Source of the DNA: Fibrobacter sp. | GTDB lineage: Bacteria > Fibrobacterota > Fibrobacteria > Fibrobacterales > Fibrobacteraceae | DNA: 64,000 nt | Assembly (NCBI GenBank): GCA_024399035.1 | Contig: JAKSID010000006.1 | Coordinates: 1-64,000 of the forward strand | Direction of reading: 5' to 3' | In this document: one piece after another, positions 50,242 through 64,000 of the stretch | Numbering within the stretch: the stretch's first letter is position 1 | Layout of the letters: each line of letters begins with the position of its first letter | Position numbers and translations under genes: made by a program | The notes under the pieces: generated by a model | Told to the model about the DNA's origin: nothing | The model's input: the letters and a program-made list of their open reading frames with translations, nothing else | Database searches by the model: none

Positions 50242-51009
50242 ATGATTCATCCTTCCGCCCTTGTTCATCCTTCTGCAAAAGTTCACGAAACGGCAATTGT
50301 CGGCCCGTGGTGTCTTGTGGATGAGGGGGCTGAAATCGGTGAGAATGTTCGCCTTGAAAGCCGAGTGCACGTCTATGGCGGTGTAAAGATCGGCGCAAAT
50401 ACCCGTGTTTTTGACGGTGCAGTTCTTGGCGCTCCTCCTCAGGATTTGAAATACGCCGGTGAGGCAACCCGTCTAGAAATCGGCGACGGCTGCACTATCC
50501 GCGAGTACTGTACCTTGAACCGAGGCACCGTACAGGGCGGTGGCTGTACCCGCGTTGCAGACAAAGTATTGATCATGGCTTACTCCCACGTAGGTCATGA
50601 TTGCCAGATTGGCCGTGGAGTGGTCATTGCAAACGGCTGCCAGCTGGGCGGTCATGTACGCATTGGCGAGTACGCTACCATCGGCGGCGTTACGGCTATC
50701 CAGCAGCGCAATCAGGTTGGCGCCTACGCTTTCGTGGGCGGTACCTACAAGGTAGACAAGGACGTTCCGCCCTGCAGCAAGGCTTTCGGTACCCCCATCC
50801 GCTTCGGCGCCTTGAACCTCCATGCCTTGCGCCTCCATCCCGAGGAATTTCCCCAGTCCCGTATCGAGTTCTTTGAAAAGGCTTTCCGCGATCTTTACCG
50901 CGGTAAGCGCCCTATGGCCGAAATCATCGAAGAACTGAAAAAAGGCCCGGAACCTTTGTTCCAAGCCTTTTTCGATGAACATTGGGGCGGTACTATAATT
51001 CGTCCGTAA
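50242..51009 (+). CDS. lpxA: Acyl-ACP--UDP-N-acetylglucosamine O-acyltransferase
   Basis: A 255-residue enzyme of the first step of lipid A synthesis, forming UDP-3-O-acyl-GlcNAc. Hexapeptide repeats of the left-handed beta-helix run from residue 2 to about 185 (IHPSALVHPSAKVHETAIVGPW...), with the signatures GAPPQDLKY, EYCTLNRGT and AYSHVGHDC containing the catalytic His. The C-terminal helices (LNLHALRLHPEEFPQSRIEFFEKAFRDLYR) are typical. It shows that the organism makes lipid A and so has an outer membrane. lpxB, lpxD and fabZ are not adjacent. Confidence 0.95.
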   Translation: MIHPSALVHPSAKVHETAIVGPWCLVDEGAEIGENVRLESRVHVYGGVKIGANTRVFDGAVLGAPPQDLKYAGEATRLEIGDGCTIREYCTLNRGTVQGGGCTRVADKVLIMAYSHVGHDCQIGRGVVIANGCQLGGHVRIGEYATIGGVTAIQQRNQVGAYAFVGGTYKVDKDVPPCSKAFGTPIRFGALNLHALRLHPEEFPQSRIEFFEKAFRDLYRGKRPMAEIIEELKKGPEPLFQAFFDEHWGGTIIRP

Positions 51010-51085
51010 TATGATGCAAAGGGGTTCCCACACGTCCACATAGTGGATGAAGCATTTGTTAGTGCTCATTAGCCTGGACCCCCGA

Positions 51086-51243
51086 ACTCACAAAAGTCCG
51101 CTCTGGCGAACGGACTTTTTCTCGTGTTCTGAGCGGCGGAAACACACTTAGGAATTTATTCCTTAGTGTGGCCGGTCCCCGAAGGTGGAGGAGCAAACTC
51201 CCTGCTCAGGGGGCCCCTGCCCCTAAATATGTTTCGGTAGGGA
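51086..51243 (+). repeat. Dispersed gene-end repeat, copy 2
   Basis: Plus-strand counterpart of the minus-strand copy at 16595-16820, nearly identical through GTTCTGAGCGGCGGAAAC, the CACACTTAGGAAT/ATTCCTTAGTGTG hairpin and GGCCGGTCCCCGAA. A block of about 70 bp present in copy 1 before GTTTCGGTAGGG is missing. Confidence 0.8.
51093..51121 (+). terminator. Rho-independent terminator inside repeat copy 2
   Basis: AAAAGTCCG/CGGACTTTTT stem with an 11-nt loop, about 85 bp downstream of lpxA; it is the first element of the dispersed repeat. Confidence 0.8.
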
Positions 51244-51264
51244 AGTTTGCCCACCTTTGAATCA

Positions 51265-52554
51265 TTACAATCCGAATGCGGCGGGGAAGCCGCTGTACCA
51301 TCTGCCATTTGATTTGTCATAGGCTTCAAATCCGCCTACGGCGACGAAGCCCCAGTAGACCCAGGACATATTCCAGTACTCTGCAGCTTCAATAGTCTTC
51401 TTTGCCCAAAGTGCTTTCTTTGCTTCGGAAGGGCCGTCTCCACCACATCTGTCGTCAGGACCGCCGGAAACGCCGAATTCGCCAACGTTCATAGGAATGA
51501 AGCCACCGTTGATGTCGGGGTACAATTTCATGGCTGTTTTGACGTAGTTCTTCATGTCTTCAGATGCAGTGTTTGCGTAGGCAGCGTCACCAACGCATGC
51601 CGTGCTATGTCCCTGATGGGAGTATTCATAGGGGTCGTAGTAGTGGCCGGAATAGATGATGTTGCCATCCTTGGGCAGTTCAAGAACATCAAGTGCGCTA
51701 AACTTCGCATACTGATAAGATTCAAACATAATTGTCTTATTGGGGTCAACACTGCGGATTGCGTTGTAACCTGTCGTTAAGACTTCGTTTAGGTCCCTTG
51801 GCTGTGACATGGTAGGTTCATTCAGGACATCCCAGACAAGCATCGTATCCGGGAATTCCTTGAATGCCGTAGCAACTTCGGTCCAAATTGCAGCGAAATG
51901 TTCCTTTTCTGCCTCGTAGAGTGCAGGGAACTTGTTGCGGTTGGTGGCGAAGAAACTGATTTCGTAGTACCAGTGGAAGCTGACGATGACAGCGAGACCC
52001 ATGTCAATTGCCAGTTTAACATCTTCCTTGACACCAGCCAAACGATCTGGGTTGACCTTGTGGGTGACAGGGTCGGAATTGTGCTGCCAGCGGACAGGAA
52101 TACGGACTGAGTTGAATCCGGCATCCTTCAGGAACTTGAAATATTCGTCCTTGATTGCATTGCCCCATCCGCCGTCGAGGTAGTCGTCGCAGCCGTAGTT
52201 GTACTGCACTGCGGGGATATTGTTGTCGTACTTGGCATCATAAGAGGGGAGGAACATCGGGTACTCGATGCCATTCGCCTTGTAGATAACAGTGTCACTG
52301 CTTTTTCTGTCAGGGTCATATTGCAGGGTGCCACAGTTCCAGTAGGAATGGGAGTCCCAGGCGTTTCCAAGGTTGATGCCTTTGCCCAGACGCTTGTTCA
52401 TGGCGCGACCCAAAGAATAGTCTACGGGAACAACAACGTGGGCTGCTGTGGCTTGCTTTTCTTCTTCTTCTGCCGGGGCGTGAGTTGAACTGCTGCTGTC
52501 GCAGGCAACCATGGCGAGGCCGAGGGTGAGTACAAAGGGGATCAGTCGTTTCAT
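51265..52554 (-). CDS. GH5 endoglucanase-like lipoprotein
   Basis: A 429-residue lipoprotein (signal peptide and lipobox AMVAC, Cys18) with a short acidic linker, then a glycoside hydrolase family 5 (beta/alpha)8 domain (about 48-425). The acid/base Glu246 in WDVLNEP and the nucleophile Glu359 in MNVGEFG are present, together with GKGINLGNAWD, NSVRIPVRWQ and VSFHWYY. These fit an endo-beta-1,4-glucanase, with mannanase an alternative. A Cys-rich insertion (CGTLQYDPDRKS...; YGCDDYLDGGWG) is notable. GAGGG precedes the ATG. It diverges from the outer-membrane operon. Confidence 0.9.
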   Translation of the reverse strand: MKRLIPFVLTLGLAMVACDSSSSTHAPAEEEEKQATAAHVVVPVDYSLGRAMNKRLGKGINLGNAWDSHSYWNCGTLQYDPDRKSSDTVIYKANGIEYPMFLPSYDAKYDNNIPAVQYNYGCDDYLDGGWGNAIKDEYFKFLKDAGFNSVRIPVRWQHNSDPVTHKVNPDRLAGVKEDVKLAIDMGLAVIVSFHWYYEISFFATNRNKFPALYEAEKEHFAAIWTEVATAFKEFPDTMLVWDVLNEPTMSQPRDLNEVLTTGYNAIRSVDPNKTIMFESYQYAKFSALDVLELPKDGNIIYSGHYYDPYEYSHQGHSTACVGDAAYANTASEDMKNYVKTAMKLYPDINGGFIPMNVGEFGVSGGPDDRCGGDGPSEAKKALWAKKTIEAAEYWNMSWVYWGFVAVGGFEAYDKSNGRWYSGFPAAFGL

Positions 52555-52788
52555 TTTGCCCTCAAAGGTAAAATTGTTCTTTACATAAAACTAAACATTT
52601 TCAATCTTAAGGAATACAACTATTCAAAAATAATGTGTTTACTACTGAAAACGCGAAAAAACAGCCAAAAATACAAAAAAAGTGTTGTTTAACCCACTTT
52701 GTGTACGCTTTTTGATTTTTCGCTTTTCCCACCCCTAAAAAAACAAATTATATTGTAGCCTATCCGAATTTGGAGATTTTTAGGCATT

Positions 52789-53532
52789 ATGAAAGTAAAT
52801 CCGCATAAAGCAAGCTGGTTGTGCGCCCTCGGCGTACTTCTTTTAGCGTCGTTCTCTTTTGCTGGTTATGGATTCAGCGATTATCGTGATCGTGACCAGT
52901 CCCGTTTTGTAACCAAACAGGCTAAGCCCTTCCGTCCCGACAAGGACGTGGTGTCCGTGGTCATGCGTGAAGCAATCCCACGTGGCGGTGGATACGTCTA
53001 CCAGTATCCTCGTGAAAACCCCGAACCGGTTCTCACCGACAAGTATGCTATGGAAGGCGCTCTTTCCATGGAAATTGAACTTATTGCCAGCGACTATTCC
53101 GGTGTGGCTATTTGTATCGCCGGTTCCGTCGACCTGGAACCGTACTACGAAGAAGGCGTCGTTGAATTCTGGATCAAGGGCGAAAAGGGTGGCGAAAATG
53201 CCCTGTTCGTGCTTGTGGACGACGGTGTTAAGACCGGTGGCGAATCCATGCAGGTTAAGCTCCGTTCCAAGAGCCTCGGCGAAATCACTACCGAATGGAA
53301 GCGTTTCAGCATTCCTCTGAAGCTCTTCGGCAGAACCGGTGTTTACTGGGATGCAAAGAACACTCGTGAAGTGATGCTCCCCTTCAGCTGGACCAACTTC
53401 AAGGGCTTCCGTATCGAAGTCCGTAAGGATGAAAACGAATCCTTCAAGGTCTGGATGGATGATATTGTCGTGAAGAGACAGGGCAAGGCTTACGAAGGCC
53501 CGTCCAACTACCCGTTCCGCAACGAGATTTAA
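52789..53532 (+). CDS. Secreted carbohydrate-binding-like protein, operon gene 1
   Basis: A 247-residue exported protein with signal peptide (about 1-25, ending SFA). The mature part is a single beta-rich domain with ALSMEIELIASDYSGVAICIAG, GVVEFWIKGEKGGENALFVLVDDG, WKRFSIPLKLF and FKGFRIEV..DENESFKVWMDDIVVKR, the strand pattern of CBM11/CIA30-like jelly rolls, so I infer glycan binding. First gene of a six-gene operon with gaps of only 10-16 bp; the next four genes encode outer-membrane barrels and a lipoprotein. Confidence 0.65.
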   Translation: MKVNPHKASWLCALGVLLLASFSFAGYGFSDYRDRDQSRFVTKQAKPFRPDKDVVSVVMREAIPRGGGYVYQYPRENPEPVLTDKYAMEGALSMEIELIASDYSGVAICIAGSVDLEPYYEEGVVEFWIKGEKGGENALFVLVDDGVKTGGESMQVKLRSKSLGEITTEWKRFSIPLKLFGRTGVYWDAKNTREVMLPFSWTNFKGFRIEVRKDENESFKVWMDDIVVKRQGKAYEGPSNYPFRNEI

Positions 53533-53547
53533 GAGGAATAGGATTAT

Positions 53548-56049
53548 ATGCGCAAATTACCGTTTATTGCAACAACCCTGCTTTGTTCCTCTCTAGCATT
53601 GGCTCAAGAGGACGCAATTCAGGAAGATTATTCTACTGAATCTGCTGTAGAAACCCCCGCCGAAGAAGCTGCTCCTGCCGAAGAAGCGGCTCCTGCTGAA
53701 GAAGCCGCTTCCGTCGAGGAATCTACTGAAGTCGCCGAAGCTCCTGCCGAAGAAGCTCCGGCTGCAGCCGAACCGGCACCCGCAGAAGAAGCTCCCAAGA
53801 AGGAACTTGCAAGTACCGCTACCGCAAAGGGACCGGCACCTGTGGTCGCCGCACCTAAGACTCTCGCACCCGAAGCTCAGATCGCCGCTGTCGAAGAAAA
53901 TGCGGATGCACTTTCTGAAAACATGGAATCTACCCTGCTCGGTAAGGACGATCTGCCGTTGGCAGTCTCCGGTTACATGGCTTTCCGTCTCAAGAACTTT
54001 GACTACTCCAAGGGTAGCCCCTGGTCTAAGACCGATGCGGCTCGTACGCCGGTAGATGCAGTCCTCAACATGAACATTGTAGCAATGCCAAATAGCTACA
54101 TGACTTTGTGGACAAACATCTCTTTCCCGTTTGACCTGAGTGGTTTCTATACAAACTATCTGTCTGAAAAGCCCAGCGATGCTAAGACTTACGACGAACG
54201 CGTGCTGTTCGACCACTCCACCGATTTCTACTCCGTTTCTATTAACGAAGAAATGAATATGGGCGTGGATATCCGTGCTGGCGTGTTCGGTGCATACGTT
54301 ACCGCCGGTGGTGTTATCTGGGCAAATTCTTCTCCGCTTACCATGTGGGAACGTGAAACCAATCCTCGTTTCGCATGGCAGTACGAACTGTTCGAAGACG
54401 AAAAGACTGTAAGTACTTACTATAAGGAAAAGGTCTTTAAGCCGGTTAAGGAAGGTGGTCGTGCATTCTGGACCAACCGTTCTTTCGGTGGCGTCTTTGC
54501 TAGCGTCTATCAGCTGCCTTTCGACTTGAAGGCTCAGTTCCTTCTGTCCCAGCCTGCTGACGCAGACATCGGTACCCGTGACGGTCTCCGTATGTACGGT
54601 GGCCAGCCTGGCGAAATGGAAATGTCCGGTACTTACGATTTCCGCGGTTCCATCTACCACGGCCGTATCGCTAAGGAAAAGATTGCCGACAACATGACCG
54701 TCGGTGTCAACTACATGGGCGTGGTCTTCGATAACGAAATCGTTAACGAAGGCGAATTCAGCGAACTGTGGGCTAAGTATTCCGAATCCGGTGAGCCGAC
54801 AATCCTGAACACTCACGTTGCTTCTCTTGACGTCAAGGGTAACATTACCCCGAAGCTGTACCTTATGGCTGATTTGGCATTGAGCCTTACGGACTCTCTG
54901 AAATTCTTCCGCACTAAGGATGCTGCAAACTATGTTGAATCTGACGTCACCACGGGTTATTTGCCCGATGCCTACGAACGTTCGATCAATACCCCGCAGG
55001 TTGGCTTCTACCTGAAGGCCCAGAGTAAGTATATCGAAGGCTGGCCCATGACTGTTGAAGCCATCTTCCTGCCTAAGGAATTCTACTCTCCCTATTCTAT
55101 CTCCAACCCCTCTCGTTTCACCAGCTGGCGCAAGGATGAATCCTACCTCAACGGTGGTTCCCTGCGTTACACTCCCAATATGGCTGGCTTGAACTTCAAG
55201 TTGGAACCCACCTTCAACCGCGGTTACTTCGATATCCAGTATGGTCAGCACCGTCAGATCGAAGAGGGCCAGGACATGGTTTACTTCAACTACCGTCTTA
55301 ACGGCCGTAGCATGTGGGAAGGCACTAACTCTTGGACCAAGCATAAGCCGCTCTTTGTTGCTGACTCTGGTAACGCTGGTGGCGCTGGTTACATTGCTCG
55401 TGCAGGTGTTCAGCAGACTACTGAACTGGGTGTTAAGCAGTACCGTCAGCAGGGCGGCCTTTACGGTGGCACCTGGGAACTGTGGGAAGGCTTTGTTGCC
55501 TACGACAATGCAGAACAGATTGTTAACGGTGAAGTCCCCTCTAGCACCAAGTGGTTCTCTTACCTCTCCTTCATGGGCGGTTATGATATTGGTGGCTGGT
55601 TCAATACCGACCGTACCATCATGATGACTGGTTACGCCGCTCTCTCTGGTGTTTCCAAGAGCTTTGCTCCTATCGCTATCAACGAATCCACGTTTGATAT
55701 GATCCTTTGGAGCTTCTATGGTCATTTCGAACCTTCTGTGGCTGTGACCCCGACATTCCATATGGTCGGTGTTCTTGGCTTGGAATCCTTCCGTTCTCAA
55801 TACGGTTACACCAAGACCGAAGCAACGTCGGCTCCTCAGACCGCTGGCGATCCCTATACCATGTTCTACTACAAGAAAACTCCGATCAATTACCTGGAAA
55901 CCGCAATCGGTATCGGCTTTGACTGGGATTTCTCTGACCGCGTTGGTCTCCATGCTCGTTACAAGTACATGACCCATTCCGACGAAACGGTCTCTGTAAA
56001 CGATTGGCATTCTCACTACATTGCCGCCGAAGTTAAGGCTTGGTTCTAA
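53548..56049 (+). CDS. Predicted outer-membrane beta-barrel protein, operon gene 2
   Basis: An 833-residue exported protein. Signal peptide (to Ala19), then a roughly 85-residue low-complexity Glu/Ala/Pro segment (repeated PAEEA) that may span the periplasm, then a long region of alternating strands (LPLAVSGYMAFRLKNFDY; YMTLWTNISFPFDLSGF; FDMILWSFYGHFEPSVAVTPTFHMVGVLGLESF) ending in an aromatic terminus (HYIAAEVKAWF). This is typical of large porin-like barrels of 20 or more strands. Family not recognised. It shares the general layout of the next two genes but has little obvious sequence similarity to them. Confidence 0.65.
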   Translation: MRKLPFIATTLLCSSLALAQEDAIQEDYSTESAVETPAEEAAPAEEAAPAEEAASVEESTEVAEAPAEEAPAAAEPAPAEEAPKKELASTATAKGPAPVVAAPKTLAPEAQIAAVEENADALSENMESTLLGKDDLPLAVSGYMAFRLKNFDYSKGSPWSKTDAARTPVDAVLNMNIVAMPNSYMTLWTNISFPFDLSGFYTNYLSEKPSDAKTYDERVLFDHSTDFYSVSINEEMNMGVDIRAGVFGAYVTAGGVIWANSSPLTMWERETNPRFAWQYELFEDEKTVSTYYKEKVFKPVKEGGRAFWTNRSFGGVFASVYQLPFDLKAQFLLSQPADADIGTRDGLRMYGGQPGEMEMSGTYDFRGSIYHGRIAKEKIADNMTVGVNYMGVVFDNEIVNEGEFSELWAKYSESGEPTILNTHVASLDVKGNITPKLYLMADLALSLTDSLKFFRTKDAANYVESDVTTGYLPDAYERSINTPQVGFYLKAQSKYIEGWPMTVEAIFLPKEFYSPYSISNPSRFTSWRKDESYLNGGSLRYTPNMAGLNFKLEPTFNRGYFDIQYGQHRQIEEGQDMVYFNYRLNGRSMWEGTNSWTKHKPLFVADSGNAGGAGYIARAGVQQTTELGVKQYRQQGGLYGGTWELWEGFVAYDNAEQIVNGEVPSSTKWFSYLSFMGGYDIGGWFNTDRTIMMTGYAALSGVSKSFAPIAINESTFDMILWSFYGHFEPSVAVTPTFHMVGVLGLESFRSQYGYTKTEATSAPQTAGDPYTMFYYKKTPINYLETAIGIGFDWDFSDRVGLHARYKYMTHSDETVSVNDWHSHYIAAEVKAWF

Positions 56050-56064
56050 TAGGGGGTGCAGAAT

Positions 56065-58281
56065 ATGAAAAAGACTATGAATATGAAAAAGACTTTAGCT
56101 GCCGTTCTGGTCACCTCCATTGCAGCCTCTGCAAGCGTGGCTCAGAATCAGGAACTGATTGAAAGCAAAGTTGATTCCGTCAACGCTAAGCGTGGTCTGG
56201 AAATCACCGGAAGCATCCGTGCAGTCGCTCAGTCTTCTACCTTGAAGGATGATAAGGACTTCAACGGCTTGAACACTATGCCCAAGGTTGAAAAGGACGA
56301 ATTTGTTACGGGAGACCTTGCATTTGGTTTCCGTCCTTACGAAAACGTCCGTGCAAATGCCGTTCTTCGTCTGGAAGCTGGTATGCAGGAATACTTCGCT
56401 GCTGCAGCAAAGAGCGTTTCCGTTCCTTGGATCAACGTCGAAGGCAATATCGGTAATTCCTTCTACTGGGTCGTCGGTGACTTCCGTCAGGAATACTCTC
56501 CGCTGACTTTGTTCGTTCCGGGCATTGACATCATGTACGAACCGCAGATTTTTGCTCGTAAGCGTTATATGGCCCAGAAGGAACAGTTCCTCGAAGGTAA
56601 CCAGCGTAACCTTCAGGGTGCAAACATCCAGTTCCGTAAGGACCTGAACCCGGTTCTCGGTCAGGTTCGTGCCGAAGCAATCTTTGCACGCTTGAACCGT
56701 ACCGCAGTCTTGGACCTCAGCGGTGCCGAAGGCAATATCCTTCCGAACGAGGAAGTCTGGGGCGCTTCTCAGGCTTCTAACACCGATAAGTGGTTGGTTG
56801 CTGGTAACATCGAATTGCTGCCTTTCAATAAGGCCGCATACTTCGGCGTCACTCCGATGTATGTATTCGATAACGAAGACTCCTATTCCTACGTCTATCG
56901 TCATCAGGATGGTGCAGCAACTGCAGATTACGAACTGCAGGATATTAACCCCTACGAACTGAATCCTCAGAATACGATGGTTGTCAGTGCCCGTGCTGGT
57001 GCTGATTTTACATCCATTCTCGGCAACAATAACCTGATCTTGGATGGTACTGCTGAATTCGCAATGTCTATGGATAAGGCCTACAAGGTCGATACCCTGG
57101 CAGAAAAGACATATGAGTTCACGGAACAGGACTTGAATGGCATGGCCTTGTTGGTCAACCTGAATGCCGGTTACAAGACCGACAAGTGGGGTGTCAAGGT
57201 TGCTGTTGATGCAGTCTACAATGACAGCAACTGGTTCAACAACTTGGCTCAGTCTCCTTCCTTCTTTGCTCAGCGTGTCCTGAACTCTGATCGCGATGGA
57301 AACACTGTTAAGTATTCAGTAAACTCTCCGCTTTACTCCTCTTTCGATGCTCTCTATAATTTCAACCCGAAGTTCTCTCCTGTAGCAAGATCTTTGGGAA
57401 CAAATGATGACGCATTCAGAGACGGTCAGAGCAACAGCTACAACATTGCAAACTACAACAAGAATTCCTGGACTTCCAACGTTTACACCCGCAATCAGTT
57501 GGCTCTCCTCGAAACTCTCTCCGACCCGGCTTTGCAGATGAGCTTGCCTAACGGCTTGGCTACCTCTAACCGTGCTGGTGCTCGTGCAACTTTGACCGCT
57601 AACTACGGCGAAGCTGTGGAATTCCAAGGTATGTTCAGCATGTTCCAGCAGGTATCCCCGGTGACCACCCAGGTTCTGATCTCTGGCAACAAGACCTCTC
57701 TTACTTATAAGGCAGCCTCCTATCTTGAATACGGCGCCGGTGCTAAGGTTGACGTGTTCAAGCTCCTCGGCTTCTCCAGGCCGCTGGAAGTCTCTGGCTC
57801 CTATAAGCATTCTGAACGAACCCTCGATACTGATAACTGGACTGCAGCTGGCCTCGTTGATGAATCCACCTCTCTTAAGAGCGACTTCATCAATGCTGGA
57901 CTCTATGTTCAGTACTTGCCTCGCTTGGGCGTAAATCTCGGCTTCCAGATGATCAATTCCGAAATGACCGAACTGAACCAGTTGAACGCCTACGGTGTTG
58001 GTTACAAGAACCCGAAAATCAAGAGCTCTCAGATGCAGTGGATGGTCGGCCTCGACTACAATATTGCTAAGACCGCTTGGTTGGCTGTTAACTTCGGTAT
58101 GATTTCCGTTTCTAACGACTACAACACTACCAAGTCTCTGGCTGCCGATGGTTCTTCTGCTGACTACTCCGGTGCAGTGAACTTGCCGGATTATATTTCT
58201 AGTACGGATGGTCTGACAGGAACTTTCACGTATGAGTTCTCGCAGATGGTTCTTGAAGCTTCCATTAACGTGGAATTTTAA
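56065..58281 (+). CDS. Predicted outer-membrane beta-barrel protein, operon gene 3
   Basis: A 738-residue exported barrel-like protein: signal peptide to about Ala26 (TSIAASASVA), a short coiled segment (LIESKVDSVNAKRGLEITGSIRA), then strands to the C-terminal FSQMVLEASINVEF. It is paralogous to the next gene: SPLTLFVPGIDIMYEPQIFARKRY corresponds to TPYTLYTPQQQLLQEPEIFAQKRV, and LPNGLATSNRAGARATL to LPYGIATPDRKGVKASL. AGGGGG lies 8 bp upstream of ATG 56065, which I prefer to a start three codons earlier. Confidence 0.65.
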   Translation: MKKTMNMKKTLAAVLVTSIAASASVAQNQELIESKVDSVNAKRGLEITGSIRAVAQSSTLKDDKDFNGLNTMPKVEKDEFVTGDLAFGFRPYENVRANAVLRLEAGMQEYFAAAAKSVSVPWINVEGNIGNSFYWVVGDFRQEYSPLTLFVPGIDIMYEPQIFARKRYMAQKEQFLEGNQRNLQGANIQFRKDLNPVLGQVRAEAIFARLNRTAVLDLSGAEGNILPNEEVWGASQASNTDKWLVAGNIELLPFNKAAYFGVTPMYVFDNEDSYSYVYRHQDGAATADYELQDINPYELNPQNTMVVSARAGADFTSILGNNNLILDGTAEFAMSMDKAYKVDTLAEKTYEFTEQDLNGMALLVNLNAGYKTDKWGVKVAVDAVYNDSNWFNNLAQSPSFFAQRVLNSDRDGNTVKYSVNSPLYSSFDALYNFNPKFSPVARSLGTNDDAFRDGQSNSYNIANYNKNSWTSNVYTRNQLALLETLSDPALQMSLPNGLATSNRAGARATLTANYGEAVEFQGMFSMFQQVSPVTTQVLISGNKTSLTYKAASYLEYGAGAKVDVFKLLGFSRPLEVSGSYKHSERTLDTDNWTAAGLVDESTSLKSDFINAGLYVQYLPRLGVNLGFQMINSEMTELNQLNAYGVGYKNPKIKSSQMQWMVGLDYNIAKTAWLAVNFGMISVSNDYNTTKSLAADGSSADYSGAVNLPDYISSTDGLTGTFTYEFSQMVLEASINVEF

Positions 58282-58296
58282 TGGGAGGAAGCGAAT

Positions 58297-60468
58297 ATGA
58301 TGTTCAATAAGAAAATTTCCGCTTTCGGTCTTACTTCTGCAATCTTGTTCTCCGCTACCGCAGCTATGGCTGAAGGTGAAAGCGTCGAAACCCAGCAGAA
58401 GACCCTTTTGCAAAAGTTGGATTCCCTGAACGCCGCTGTTCTGGGCCTCCGTATCAATGGTTCTGCTAAGGCCGGTGTCTTGACCTCTATGGCTAGCTCC
58501 GATCAGTTCAAGGCTGAATCCCCGACTCAGGAAAGCCAGGCATTTACCGATGCTAACTTGATCTTTACCGCTCGCCCCAGTTCTGAAACCGAAGTGCATT
58601 TGGAAATGCGCCTTCACAAGGATTGGCAGAGTGGCTTTGATGAAAACAACAACCCGATGATTGGCCACTGGTTCTCCTATGATGGCAAGATTCTGAACAA
58701 GCATGTTGATTTCAACTTGGGCTACATGAAGGTCGGCTTTACTCCGTACACCTTGTACACCCCGCAACAGCAGTTGCTGCAGGAACCCGAGATCTTCGCT
58801 CAGAAGCGTGTCGAAGCTTTGGCCCAGCGCAACCTGGATACCACAACCGCTCGCTTGATGCAGGGCTTGAATGTGGATTACCATAGCGGTAAGCTTGGTC
58901 CTCTTTCCGATATCCATGCTCAGGCAACTGGCGCTCGTATGCGTAACACCGCCAAGAAGGTTGACCAGGTGTTCTTTGACTTCGACTACGCTGACCGTTA
59001 TTTCTACGGTTTGCGTGGAGGCGTTGAACTCTTCGGTGCAAGCCTCGGTGTGAACTATACCGATGTGTTTGATCGCCATAAGGGTGCTAGAGCCCGCATG
59101 ACTACCCTTGATTCTGTAATTCATTACGAAGACAACTCTGTGCTGTCTGCAGAATTGAACTTTGATTCCAAGAAGGTTCTTCCCAGTCTTCCGCTTCAGT
59201 TCGGTTTGAATGGCGAATTCGCTATGTCCAACTGGTCCGCTGATGGGGATCGAATGGTGCAGGTCCCTGATACTGCCTATAATGTGCAGTATGTGTTCAT
59301 CTACAAGGATCCTAAGAACAATAAGGATAAAGACTCTGTTCTTACCGTGGTGTCCAAGGTTACCACCAAGGATGCAATTCAGAATGAGTCTGAAGGCGAA
59401 GCTAGTGGAACTTCCTTCTACGTAGAACCTTATGTTAACCTTGAATTCGCTGGATTCCAGGTTGATGCCAAGGTTATGTATCTCCAGAACGGAGAAGATT
59501 TCTGGTCTGAAATGGCTTCTTCTCCGGTTTATGAAGGCAACGGTGTTGTCCTGAACTCCAATGCTTTGTACAATAGCGATGCCTATTCCAATCTGGTTGA
59601 CAACTTCGGTATGTCCAGTCTGGAAAACATGTACTTCACTGTGTACAACTCCAATCCTTTGAGTGCTGGAAACATCATGTCTTCCTTGGCTGGTGCCGGT
59701 ACAAATACGTTGGACAATACTGATGAAGGCGATCCCCAGTATTTCTATTCCCGCTTGTACAACAACTACAAGAACGCACACTTCTATCGCAACGGTTACA
59801 ATGCCGAAGTCTTGAAGCGTAGGGAAATTTCTGAAGCTCTGACCAACATGGATCCTTCTGTCAGCATGGAATTGCCTTATGGCATTGCTACTCCTGACCG
59901 TAAGGGTGTTAAGGCTAGCCTCAATGTCCGCTGGAACGACGCTCTTGAAGTTAACGCAGTTGTCGCTGCTCTTAGCGAAAACGCTGCAACCAAGCATGAC
60001 GCTTCTGGCGCTATCGTTGCCGGCGAAACCGAAGCTAACAGCTACCTCCGCTATGGCGTAGGCCTTGGCCTTGATGTTGGCCGATTCCTCGCAGGCCTCG
60101 TCGATATTGGTGCTAAGCTCCAGTTGTCCTATGATCATTCCGAAGAAGATGCTTACCTGGAACGTTCTATGAACCGCTTGATGGGTGGCCTTTCTGTGAA
60201 CCTCTTTAGCAGGGTTGATATTCTTGTGGGTTATCAGACTTCTTCTAAGGAATTTGGCAAGCCGCTCGTCGTCGGAACTAATGCCATTACCAAGACCGAA
60301 GAAACCTTGCTCTTGGCTGGTCCCCGCGTAAAGATTGCTCCTAATTCCTTCGTGTCTGTTCAGGGCGGTATGTTGAATGACAAGGTTTCTTTCACAACGG
60401 CCGGTGCTGCGGACGAACTCTCTATCGGTAAGATTGTTCTTACTGCCGATGTAACGGTAAACTTCTAA
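58297..60468 (+). CDS. Predicted outer-membrane beta-barrel protein, operon gene 4
   Basis: A 723-residue exported barrel-like protein: signal peptide (to about Ala25), then a KLDSLNAAVLGLRINGSAKAG segment like that of the preceding paralogue, and alternating strands to the C-terminal aromatic VLTADVTVNF. Conserved between the two are an EPEIFAQKR/EPQIFARKR block near residue 165 and a terminal domain starting LPYGIATPDRKGV. The pair probably arose by tandem duplication. The GGAGG ribosome site upstream of the ATG is strong. Confidence 0.65.
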   Translation: MMFNKKISAFGLTSAILFSATAAMAEGESVETQQKTLLQKLDSLNAAVLGLRINGSAKAGVLTSMASSDQFKAESPTQESQAFTDANLIFTARPSSETEVHLEMRLHKDWQSGFDENNNPMIGHWFSYDGKILNKHVDFNLGYMKVGFTPYTLYTPQQQLLQEPEIFAQKRVEALAQRNLDTTTARLMQGLNVDYHSGKLGPLSDIHAQATGARMRNTAKKVDQVFFDFDYADRYFYGLRGGVELFGASLGVNYTDVFDRHKGARARMTTLDSVIHYEDNSVLSAELNFDSKKVLPSLPLQFGLNGEFAMSNWSADGDRMVQVPDTAYNVQYVFIYKDPKNNKDKDSVLTVVSKVTTKDAIQNESEGEASGTSFYVEPYVNLEFAGFQVDAKVMYLQNGEDFWSEMASSPVYEGNGVVLNSNALYNSDAYSNLVDNFGMSSLENMYFTVYNSNPLSAGNIMSSLAGAGTNTLDNTDEGDPQYFYSRLYNNYKNAHFYRNGYNAEVLKRREISEALTNMDPSVSMELPYGIATPDRKGVKASLNVRWNDALEVNAVVAALSENAATKHDASGAIVAGETEANSYLRYGVGLGLDVGRFLAGLVDIGAKLQLSYDHSEEDAYLERSMNRLMGGLSVNLFSRVDILVGYQTSSKEFGKPLVVGTNAITKTEETLLLAGPRVKIAPNSFVSVQGGMLNDKVSFTTAGAADELSIGKIVLTADVTVNF

Positions 60469-60478
60469 GAGGTGCACC

Positions 60479-61693
60479 ATGAAAAATTTTAAACTGATTC
60501 TTTCTGCAGTTACGGCAACCTTCCTCTTCGGTTGCTCGGATCTTGCTGTTAATGAAAAAGAAGCTTACTCTGAAAACATGCCGGCAGATTTCAACTATCA
60601 GGAATACGTTGAAATCAATCCCAAGTTGCATTTCCAAATCATTACGGAAGCTGCTACTAAGCACAATTCCGATATCCGTGAAATGTTGGATCAGCGCAAG
60701 ACGCTGGCGAAGGACTCCGCTACAAACGCTGCAGCTATTGCAGCTTTGGATTCCTCTGCTCAGATGAAGGCTTATATTGCCGATTCCATTAAGTTCTACC
60801 AGACCGATTCCGCAACAATCCATGCTTTGTTCCTCAAGGATTGGGCTGGCGCTTTGCGTCACTACACTGAAGCCGACTGGAAGAGTAGCTGGGATCAGGT
60901 CGCTGTTGCTACCAAGTATGATACAACATCCAAGGTCCTGGACACTCTGAGACTGGACGTGACTGGCATTGGTGAAGGTACAGATACGACCAAGATCTAT
61001 ATGGATACCGGTAAGGCTGATGGTACTACCGCGAAGGGTAAGATTACCTATGATGAAAATGGTGTCATTACCGCAATCGATGGCTATACCGACACCCTCT
61101 ACACAGAAGAAATCTCTGTAACCATTAGTGAAACGGTTAAGGTCGAAAAAATGAAGACCAAGGCCAAGCTGATGACTAGAACCACTGTTACTGTTGATAC
61201 TACAGTGGATACTACATACATAAAGGGCCTTGATGCATCTAAGTACTCTTATCTGGGTAAGTTCAATTTCATTGACAAGGTTGATGCCGCTGGCAATGTC
61301 CAGGAACTGGATGATGTTGCCGTTGCCGAAGCTGTAAAGGCTGACTCCACTACTGTTACACTTCAGTACATCTGGATTGGCAAGGTCAATGGTTGGCCGT
61401 ATCGTCGTTGTAAGGAAAGCGAACTTAACAACACTCGTCCTTGTGAAGACGAATACTTGCTTTGCGAAGCTGCGGCTGCAAATGCCTCTACGACGACTGA
61501 AGTAACTGAAAAGACCGAAGAAGGCTCTGAAGCAACTGAAGAGGACTCTAAGGAAGACGAAAAGGCAAAGATAGAAGAAACGTTGCGCCTTTGCATCAGC
61601 AATGTTAAGAACAGTTGTGCTGTAACTGATTCCACAAAGTTCAAGCGTTACTGCTACGATGAAGTTGGCGGCTATGCTCGCGAGATTAAATAA
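60479..61693 (+). CDS. Lipoprotein of unknown function, operon gene 5
   Basis: A 404-residue lipoprotein (lipobox FLFGC, Cys19). The N-terminal third is helical (EMLDQRKTLAKDSATNAAAIAALDSSAQMKAYIADSIKFY), followed by a region rich in Asp-Thr pairs (TTVTVDTTVDTTYIKGLD) and a compact C-terminal domain with five or six cysteines (WPYRRCKES..CEDEYLLCEA..LRLCISNVKNSC..RYCYDE) split by a Thr/Glu-rich low-complexity loop. No family recognised. Its place between outer-membrane barrels and a glycan-binding-type protein suggests a surface or periplasmic subunit. Confidence 0.65.
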   Translation: MKNFKLILSAVTATFLFGCSDLAVNEKEAYSENMPADFNYQEYVEINPKLHFQIITEAATKHNSDIREMLDQRKTLAKDSATNAAAIAALDSSAQMKAYIADSIKFYQTDSATIHALFLKDWAGALRHYTEADWKSSWDQVAVATKYDTTSKVLDTLRLDVTGIGEGTDTTKIYMDTGKADGTTAKGKITYDENGVITAIDGYTDTLYTEEISVTISETVKVEKMKTKAKLMTRTTVTVDTTVDTTYIKGLDASKYSYLGKFNFIDKVDAAGNVQELDDVAVAEAVKADSTTVTLQYIWIGKVNGWPYRRCKESELNNTRPCEDEYLLCEAAAANASTTTEVTEKTEEGSEATEEDSKEDEKAKIEETLRLCISNVKNSCAVTDSTKFKRYCYDEVGGYAREIK

Positions 61694-61707
61694 GGCAGGG
61701 TGATTTT

Positions 61708-62766
61708 ATGAATATCAAGACTATTGCTTTGACCCTTGCTCTTGGCGCTTTTGCTATGGCAAATGCCGCCGCTGACAAGGTAGTTGGTTTCTACCCGTAC
61801 TGGAGCCAGTACTCTCAGTTCTACGCAAAGGATATTCGTTACAATACTGTAACTGACATCCATTACGTTGGTCTGGTTCCCGCTGAAGACGGCTCTGTCG
61901 CCTTTGCAGATGAATACGATGCTGATAACTTCAAGAGCCTGGCTAAATTGTCCAAGGAAAACAATGTTAAGCTCGTTGTTTCTGTGGGCGGCATGGAAGC
62001 CGAAGGCAACCTGAAGGCCATCGCTTCTTCTGATGAACTGCTTTCTACTTTCGTTTCTAACGTAAGCAGCTGGCTTTCCGCAAACGGTGGCGACGGTGTT
62101 GAACTTGACTGGCAGAACGCTACTGCAGAAGATGCAGAAGACTACGCCAAGATGGTAAACGCTCTCGTTGACGGCCTTTCCGGCTCTACCGTGACTGCCG
62201 TGATCTACCCGGCAGCTGGCATGGAAGCCTACAAGGCCGACGCTCTGAACCGCCTTGCTTATGTGGACGTGTTCATGGCCGACCAGATGACCGAAGAAAG
62301 CTCCGAAGTTGTTCCCAACCAGGGCGCAACCTCCGTGAAGGAAACCTTGAGCAGCGTTACTTCCGCAGGCGTTAACGCAGACCTCCTGGTTCCCGTGCTC
62401 TTCCTCTATGGCAAGAGCTGGATTGGTGCAAAGGGCCTCGGTACTTCTCATCAGGGCACTGGTAGCGGTGACGAAGGTTACCTGTCCTATGCTGAATTGA
62501 TGAACAAGTTCGATTCTCCGGAATACAAGGTGACCTTTGATGAAGCTTCCCAGTCCGAAGTTGCTGTAAGCGATGCAGAAACCATCGTGTTCATGGGTAT
62601 TCCTTCTGTAAAGGCTGTTGCTAAGCAGGTTAAGGCTGATGGTATGGGCGGCGTGGCTGTCTATTCTCTCCATCAGGATCATTTCGAACCCATCGTCTCC
62701 CTCCTGGTGACTATCGGTTTGGAACTCCGCCCGCAGGTGAACTACAAGCCCAGCAAGAAGAAGTAA
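61708..62766 (+). CDS. GH18-fold protein with degenerate active site, operon gene 6
   Basis: A 352-residue exported protein (signal peptide to about Ala21) with the GH18 chitinase (beta/alpha)8 layout: KVVGFYPYWSQYSQFY at strand 1, LVVSVGGME at strand 3 and the region of the DGxDxDxE catalytic motif at strand 4, which here reads DGVELDWQ (129-136). The catalytic Glu is Gln136 and the second Asp is Glu132, so hydrolysis by the normal substrate-assisted mechanism is not expected. Such inactive GH18 proteins usually bind glycans. It closes the six-gene operon and is followed by a strong terminator. Confidence 0.75.
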   Translation: MNIKTIALTLALGAFAMANAAADKVVGFYPYWSQYSQFYAKDIRYNTVTDIHYVGLVPAEDGSVAFADEYDADNFKSLAKLSKENNVKLVVSVGGMEAEGNLKAIASSDELLSTFVSNVSSWLSANGGDGVELDWQNATAEDAEDYAKMVNALVDGLSGSTVTAVIYPAAGMEAYKADALNRLAYVDVFMADQMTEESSEVVPNQGATSVKETLSSVTSAGVNADLLVPVLFLYGKSWIGAKGLGTSHQGTGSGDEGYLSYAELMNKFDSPEYKVTFDEASQSEVAVSDAETIVFMGIPSVKAVAKQVKADGMGGVAVYSLHQDHFEPIVSLLVTIGLELRPQVNYKPSKKK

Positions 62767-62810
62767 TCATCGAGGCGGCTGGTCCGCTATCCATGACATT
62801 CTGAAATTAG

Positions 62811-62842
62811 AAAGAGGACTGCTACGGCAGCCCTCTTTTTTT
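62811..62842 (+). terminator. Operon terminator
   Basis: AGAGGACTGC/GCAGCCCTCT stem around a TACG loop with a seven-T tail. Confidence 0.85.
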
Positions 62843-62889
62843 CCTTGTATGTTCAGCGTACAGACATCTCTGTATGCCTGCGGGACATT

Positions 62890-63080
62890 CATAGAACTAC
62901 TGCAGAATCTTGTATAGAGCTGTGTATAGAACTGCCGAGAGTACGCTTTCAGTTACCGCGGAACCTCGTATAGAACTACCGCGGAACCACGTATAGAACT
63001 GTCGCGAAACCACGTCTAGAGCTATCGCAGAGGTGGGCATGCATTTGCCGCAGTGCCACGTATAGAACTTGCCATAGAGT
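62890..63080. repeat. Degenerate 23-bp tandem repeat
   Basis: Copies of CCACGTATAGAACTACCGCG plus GAA recur with a 23-bp period, best at 62963-63030. Less regular copies extend to both sides. The core TATAGA(A/G)CT appears seven times, and spacing of central copies is 23 or 46 bp. It lies past the operon terminator and has no coding potential. Confidence 0.7.
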
Positions 63081-63107
63081 TTCGTGGGAGAACTCCACGG
63101 GTAGTGC

Positions 63108-63142
63108 AAAAAAAAGACCGCCTCCCTTAGGGAAGCGGCCTT
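63108..63142 (-). terminator. Rho-independent terminator (minus strand)
   Basis: On the minus strand AAGGCCGCTTCCC pairs with GGGAGGCGGTCTT, ending in eight T residues; it serves the partial gene at 63172. Confidence 0.85.
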
Positions 63143-63171
63143 AAGCTTTTGCAAGTTACTTCAAGTAAGGA

Positions 63172-64000
63172 TTACTTATCAGTCTTGTTCCACTTGAGGG
63201 TCACCTGGCGAGCATCCTGCTTGACAACAATCAGGTAGGAGCCTGTGGGAAGACGGTTCAAGGTGAAGTTTGCGTAGTCACCGGTGAAAGCCTTGTGCAT
63301 TACCTTCTGACCATTGACAGAGAGAATGCTGACTTCGATGTCGCCGGAGTTCTTAGCTGCAATGGCAAGCTGGTTGTTGGAGATTGTTGCCTGGAGAGGA
63401 ACTTCCGGGTTAATCTGCTGAATCTTGGCGGTGCCAAATTCTGCCAGGTTGACTGCGCTTGCGCTATCGCCGATCACGACGGTGATACCCAACTGGAAGC
63501 GACCGTACAATTCAGATTCCTCAGCTGTAGCAAGAATGCGAAGCACTGCATTCTGGTTACCTGCAACCAGGGCGTTACCCTGCTTGGTTGCATACGGAGT
63601 GGTCGGCTGGCCGTTAAAGGTGTAGGTCACCGGGGTGGAGTACATAGTGGTGTCGGGCAGCAGCTTTTCTGCGGTGCCACCCAATGCCAGCTTGGTATTC
63701 TTGAAGTTGTTTGTAATTCTGTTTGCACCCTTCTTGAAGGTCACGGTAATGGTGTCATTCATAGCCTTGTAGCCAGTAACTGCCGGTGCGGTAGCAACGA
63801 TCTTTGCTTCGCCAAAGGACTTGAATTCGTACATATACACAGTCTGCTTGGACATTGTGGATGTGCAGGTTGCTGCGTTACATGGAACCTTCTTAACAGC
63901 AACGATCTCAGGGCTCAAGGATGTCAAGGTGTAGGTGGCGCCTTCCATGGTTTTCATGTTGGCGGTGAGCGGCCATTCCTTGGCGGTTCCGGAACCAGAG
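63172..64000 (-). CDS. Secreted protein with T9SS-like tail (5' end beyond window)
   Basis: The reading frame stays open to the window edge (upstream codons read SGSGTAKEWPLTAN), so the true start lies outside. The visible 275 residues are beta-rich and Thr-rich, with a paired-Cys segment (CNAATC), an Ig-like region (YSTPVTYTFNGQPTTPYATKQGNALV) and a C-terminal sorting tail (IEVSILSVNGQKVMHKAF; LPTGSYLIVVKQDARQVTLKW). Probably a large secreted or cell-surface protein; the catalytic or binding part is not visible. A terminator follows the stop codon. Confidence 0.65.
   Translation of the reverse strand, partial: SGSGTAKEWPLTANMKTMEGATYTLTSLSPEIVAVKKVPCNAATCTSTMSKQTVYMYEFKSFGEAKIVATAPAVTGYKAMNDTITVTFKKGANRITNNFKNTKLALGGTAEKLLPDTTMYSTPVTYTFNGQPTTPYATKQGNALVAGNQNAVLRILATAEESELYGRFQLGITVVIGDSASAVNLAEFGTAKIQQINPEVPLQATISNNQLAIAAKNSGDIEVSILSVNGQKVMHKAFTGDYANFTLNRLPTGSYLIVVKQDARQVTLKWNKTDK

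Follow-up and report, generated by a model that had tools for sequence, protein, structure and literature searches.

Fibrobacter succinogenes is a leading degrader of cellulose in the rumen and has neither cellulosomes nor SusCD. The mechanism by which cellodextrins cross the outer membrane of strain S85 has been stated to be unknown, and no MalA-like barrel was found (PMC6851124). The Sus loci of Bacteroidota are like the locus described here in that they cluster outer-membrane barrels with surface glycan-binding proteins, some with GH18-like folds, and a surface endo-hydrolase. Within F. succinogenes, the surface endoglucanase Cel51A (endoglucanase F; FSU_0382, Fisuc_3111) has the architecture CBM30-CBM30-CBM11-GH51. 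Three further S85 proteins are on record (PMC3079729, PMC4619616, PMC4668043, PMC6851124): FSU_2005, a GH5 cellulase; FSU_2007 (Fisuc_1525), a CBM30-only surface protein found on glucose and cellulose; and FSU_2012 (Fisuc_1530; CBP1/CBP-9), a GH18 'chitinase' whose activity is recorded as 'cellulose binding'. The latter two were treated singly in those papers, and Fisuc_1526-1529, FSU_2008, FSU_2009, FSU_2010 and FSU_2011 are not mentioned in the open-access literature searched. Published proteomics show a slight decrease of the S85 GH18 on cellulose (-1.30 fold) and detect the CBM30 protein on every substrate; there is therefore no sign of cellulose induction, and both proteins appear constitutively present, as does Cel51A.

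The window analyzed here is a stretch of 64,000 nucleotides, part of a contig (C56) of a 2.94 Mb Fibrobacter genome (G000). It carries a single operon of six exported-protein genes on the (+) strand at 52789-62766, with open reading frames where the preliminary description had placed them. The genes encode a CBM30-only protein (52789-53532), three large barrel proteins, barrel 1 (53548-56049), barrel 2 (56056-58281, with a GTG start) and barrel 3 (58297-60468), a lipoprotein with lipobox LFGC and a Cys-rich C-terminus (60479-61693), and a GH18-fold protein (61708-62766). The intergenic gaps are 15, 6, 15, 10 and 14 bp, and all six products have an N-terminal export signal as judged by eye. A GH5 endoglucanase lipoprotein (PF00150, 127.9 bits, lipobox) diverges upstream on the (-) strand (51265-52554); it is not an operon member and is the counterpart of FSU_2005. 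The AT-rich region of 234 bp between them (52555-52788) would hold the divergent promoters; its sigma-70-like match (9/12 at 52726-52754) does not exceed what that scan would yield by chance. An intrinsic terminator, read from the sequence, follows the operon on the (+) strand at 62813-62842 (AGAGGACTGC-TACG-GCAGCCCTCT-TTTTTT); its 10-bp stem, which contains a single A.C mismatch, closes on a TACG loop and leads into a T-run. A mechanical terminator scan did not call it because of that mismatch. A search of 51000-64000 with Rfam gave no RNA match.

By annotation, order and locus numbers, FSU_2007 and FSU_2012 match the first and last genes of the operon, and from the same features in the open papers FSU_2008-2011 are inferred to be the three barrels and the lipoprotein. 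The end proteins are thus already known through their S85 counterparts; what is new is the distribution of barrel 1 across the phylum and the loci in which it occurs.

Pfam names only the first and last products of the operon and the divergent GH5; the three barrels and the lipoprotein belong to no Pfam or NCBIfam family. The first product is a CBM30 protein (PF21582, 59.9 bits against a cut-off of 27), which also matches PDB entries 1wmx and 2c24 at E 2.5e-7, mainly in the second half of the fold. The last has the GH18 fold (PF00704, 108.6 bits against a cut-off of 29.6), but its DGxDxDxE motif reads DGVELDWQ, with Gln in place of the catalytic Glu. The loss of the active site is shown across the family: the catalytic Glu is absent in 50/50 orthologs (46 Gln, 2 Ile, 2 Leu), all 50 have Glu for the middle Asp of the motif, and none retains the β-8 Trp. 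From sequence alone, the protein is a pseudoenzyme throughout its Fibrobacteraceae orthologs, likely a former chitinase recycled as a binding protein.

The three barrels are 720-830 residues long and end in WF, EF and NF. The AlphaFold model of barrel 3 is a β-barrel of ~22-24 strands without a plug domain (pLDDT 78, pTM 0.75), and that of barrel 1, of modest confidence, is likewise a plugless β-barrel (pLDDT 64, pTM 0.66). Searched with Foldseek against the PDB, both models matched only outer-membrane barrels, at TM-scores of at most 0.5, with AlgE and FimD ushers among the matches to barrel 3. These matches spread over all barrel kinds (AlgE, TonB receptors, ushers), and profile searches of PDB sequences with the barrels returned none. 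Barrels 1 and 3 are therefore predicted by their models to be outer-membrane β-barrels, having a signal peptide, a C-terminal aromatic residue and a barrel fold; barrel 2 is assigned by homology to barrel 3, with which it shares ~30% identity in local segments. AlgE, OprC and other TonB receptors, and FimD-type barrels have the same general fold as barrels 1 and 3, but at 6-13% identity and such TM-scores our barrels are not members of those families. Barrel 1 is separate from barrels 2 and 3 and constitutes a new outer-membrane β-barrel family, and by Pfam and PDB sequence searches none of the three belongs to a known one. A near-invariant segment of barrel 1 at residues ~258-313 (W...SPLTxW...E.E...YY...GRAxW) is common to all lineages. 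As a separate observation, barrel 1 of this clade has 833 aa against ~750 aa in most relatives, and its N-terminal Ala/Glu/Pro-rich low-complexity stretch of ~85 residues (53608-53865) is absent in most of them.

The preliminary description had claimed six exported-protein genes with one terminator, three C-terminally aromatic barrels, a Cys-rich lipoprotein, a GH18 fold lacking the catalytic Glu and a divergent GH5 cellulase lipoprotein, all of which held, except that the gaps span 6-15 bp and not 10-16 bp. Its small jelly-roll-like protein is now identified as CBM30.

That the operon is conserved in the family is shown. Barrel 3, scanned against 84,980 genomes, returned 50 loci, all in Fibrobacterota, though the patterns were too narrow to exclude its occurrence elsewhere. 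Within the limits of each contig, all 50 loci share one gene order, and wherever the upstream sequence is long enough to tell (47 loci) the divergent GH5 is there too; the arrangement is therefore not due to chance. The most conserved member is the CBM30 protein, at 68-97% identity across Fibrobacteraceae over nearly its full length, compared with 52-84% among relatives for barrel 1 and 35-79% for barrel 3. Conservation of the CBM30 protein over its whole surface would suit a complex-bound subunit better than a free CBM. The lipoprotein evolves fast and is barely recognizable among relatives, where a lipoprotein-like open reading frame occupies the same position. A GH9 gene lies just downstream or close by in at least eleven Fibrobacteraceae loci. 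Importer genes are near the operon in two (L009 and L044); in Fibrobacter, importer and GH94 genes are mostly not adjacent to it.

Homologs of barrel 1 are found throughout the phylum. Its profile matches 145/168 Fibrobacterota genomes, including 107/111 Fibrobacteraceae, the four misses being at most 81% complete. Among 55 genomes outside Fibrobacteraceae, 36 have both barrel 1 and CBM30, two only the barrel, one only CBM30 and 16 neither; the two with the barrel but without CBM30 are 68-70% complete. The counts come from metagenome-assembled genomes and, the species being related, are not independent. Reading 39 loci, with identities checked by Pfam, revealed two arrangements. In type B (33 loci), the usual module outside Fibrobacteraceae, barrel 1 and barrel 2 are followed by a CBM30-bearing protein. 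The CBM30 gene comes directly after barrel 2 in 30/30 type-B loci where the contig continues, and in 24 of the 30, CBM11 and a GH51-like domain follow CBM30 or are fused with it. The protein is mostly CBM30-CBM30-CBM11-GH51-like, the architecture of Cel51A, and most of its GH51-like domains carry the WExGNELYG acid/base motif; the operon in our window differs in having a CBM30-only protein instead.

The association of the barrels with importer and cellodextrin-processing genes is likewise shown. ABC-importer genes, of the SBP5-type dipeptide family or the SBP1/MalK type, flank 26/33 type-B loci, whose flanks also hold GH94, a cellobiose/cellodextrin phosphorylase, in eight, a GH9 cellulase in five and GH1 in four. 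In 18/27 genomes an SBP_bac_5 gene lies no more than 10 kb from the barrels; with 1-6 copies per genome, our arithmetic from copy number and genome size gives ~0.4 genomes expected against the 18 observed.

In type A the order is CBM30, barrel 1, barrel 2, barrel 3, as in Fibrobacteraceae, and barrel 3 is found only in this type. Type-A loci of another family of the class (f4) continue with GH20 and two GH18 with an intact DGVDIDWE or AGVDIDWE motif. Three loci (L066, L068 and L069, in G158, G156 and G159) have type-A order with three barrels, GH20 and intact-motif GH18, CBM30 being seen in L066 and L069; they resemble, and possibly are, chitin-utilization loci built on the same barrels, a reading that rests on sequence alone. 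Two genomes (G156 and G158) encode both types. In the barrel 1 tree, types A and B form groups separated at full support, and the Fibrobacteraceae sequences fall with the type-A relatives, which makes their operon a type-A locus. Because type-A relatives in f4 carry GH20 and intact GH18, we propose that a chitin-type locus was likely turned to cellulose in Fibrobacteraceae, its GH18 being kept as a binder.

Parts of the type-B module appear elsewhere in the genome under study. Its Cel51A is 40-43% identical to type-B proteins over ~660-710 residues and is encoded by an orphan gene away from the barrels, of which no second set was found in this genome. We infer that Fibrobacter has kept the type-B surface protein in the form of Cel51A, whose gene now lies elsewhere. 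The type-B importer likewise survives: a protein 57% identical to the solute-binding protein of a type-B locus is encoded on another contig (C13), where its gene shares an operon with ABC genes and one for a GH9 cellulase. This locus (L120; C13:42800-48680), an SBP5/dipeptide-type ABC importer operon followed by the GH9 gene, with the contig ending nearby, is likely the cellodextrin importer of the organism. Our reading is of a dispersed utilization system, in which old parts were retained and their linkage partly lost.

Compared with Sus loci, these loci similarly co-encode glycan-binding proteins or glycanases with the barrels (CBM30 and the pseudo-GH18 here; CBM30, CBM11 and GH51-like domains in type B), and those of type B also have downstream catabolic enzymes. 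The differences lie in the membrane components. The barrels do not match SusC by Pfam or PDB sequence search, and a TonB plug domain is absent from all three by Pfam and from the models of barrels 1 and 3. SusD/RagB (PF07980) was found in 0/31 related genomes, whereas a Bacteroides control matched, and inner-membrane import at the Fibrobacterota loci is by ABC transporters. Fibrobacter genomes encode few TonB-dependent plug proteins (1-5 each), and those of the genome studied here are on two other contigs (C85 and C34), with none on that of the operon. The preliminary suggestion that the barrels lack a TonB or SusC signature, and that the system differs from Sus, thus held. It would have been refuted by a lack of gene-order conservation or by models that were not barrels; the order was kept in 50/50 loci, and barrels 1 and 3 were modeled, with moderate confidence, as β-barrels. 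The surface complex it inferred, for cellulose or hemicellulose binding, adhesion or oligosaccharide uptake, is supported, with its function unproven.

The reading we favor, with moderate confidence, is that the operon encodes an outer-membrane complex for glycan capture and uptake, which would do for cellodextrins the job of SusCD and surface glycan-binding proteins with unrelated components. Transport is inferred, as there are no binding, transport or localization data for the barrels. Under this scenario, the CBM30 protein and the pseudo-GH18 would capture cellulose chains and cellodextrins at the surface, which for the GH18 is partly published and is otherwise inferred from fold. Surface cellulases, the adjoining GH5 and Cel51A, are known enzymes and would hydrolyze the captured chains, their cooperation being inferred. 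The oligosaccharides may then pass the plugless barrels into the periplasm, a step inferred only from fold and gene context. Periplasmic binding, ABC import and phosphorolysis would follow; these involve established families, and their linkage is shown by type-B gene order. The barrels would be the pore, with cellodextrin as the putative cargo in Fibrobacter, and the CBM30 protein, lipoprotein and pseudo-GH18 may bind glycan or cap the barrels from outside. Counting against uptake by this route, TonB-dependent receptors elsewhere in the genome could possibly carry out the transport. The absence of cellulose induction of the two end proteins, the mostly separate importer and GH94 genes of Fibrobacter and the modest confidence of the barrel 1 model also weigh against it. 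The operon is a strong candidate for the outer-membrane step that cellulose uptake has lacked, with the three barrels, conserved across the phylum, as the specific proteins proposed, and their link to the long-studied Cel51A makes the question of how cellodextrins cross directly testable.

Adhesion alone remains possible, with the barrels anchoring a cellulose-binding array of the CBM30 protein, lipoprotein and pseudo-GH18 and moving no sugar. It is favored by the records of FSU_2012 as cellulose-binding and FSU_2007 as a surface CBM30 protein, by the catalytically dead GH18, and by the lack of adjacent importer genes at most Fibrobacter loci. However, three barrels of such size would be costly anchors, and the relatives adjoin ABC importers and cytosolic-type phosphorylases, which an adhesin does not need; uptake is thus better supported than adhesion alone. 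A role in secretion or display, in which the barrels would act on their co-encoded surface proteins as ushers or T9SS-associated barrels do, exporting or assembling them, is unlikely. The best fold matches of barrel 3 do include FimD ushers and the AlgE exporter, and the barrel-adjacent partner varies (CBM30-only, Cel51A-like, GH20/GH18) as cargo might. But those matches are weak and unselective, Pfam finds no chaperone, POTRA or usher domain, and the genomic context is of import, not export. A third alternative is that type-A loci, those of Fibrobacter included, act on polymers of GlcNAc (chitin or fragments of the cell wall) and not on cellulose. It is suggested by the GH20 and intact GH18 of the f4 relatives and by the grouping of Fibrobacteraceae barrel 1 with them apart from type B. 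It is very unlikely, however: the Fibrobacteraceae loci have a replacement for the GH20 gene, none of 50 GH18 orthologs has kept its active site, a GH5 cellulase gene is divergently encoded upstream in 47/47, many loci have GH9 just downstream, and cellulose binding is the activity on record for the GH18.

Returning to uptake, a bolder reading would be that Fibrobacterota possess their own Sus-like importer, built on barrels unrelated to SusC/SusD and retargeted by exchanging the surface proteins, to cellulose with a Cel51A-type protein and to chitin with GH20/GH18, and that the main cellulose operon of Fibrobacter is a converted chitin-type locus with a dead chitinase as cellulose binder. Taken jointly these claims are tentative, and we lean slightly against accepting all of them together.

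Three minor observations concern individual sequences. In one related locus (L007:5078-9985), barrels 1 and 2 read as a single 1635-aa open reading frame; we rejected a natural fusion, as the junction is a deletion removing the last strand and stop of barrel 1, and the copy is likely broken or misassembled. Downstream of the operon, a convergent gene on the (-) strand (63172-63999), which runs off the window, encodes a product ending in a T9SS-type sorting domain (PF18962, at cut-off), whereas 0/6 operon proteins match the T9SS C-terminal sorting domain (PF18962/TIGR04183). Just past the operon terminator lies a degenerate array of ~23-bp units (GTATAGAACTxCCGCGGAACCAC) at 62889-63076; three of the four genome-wide matches to the unit core fall within it, and the array is therefore local.
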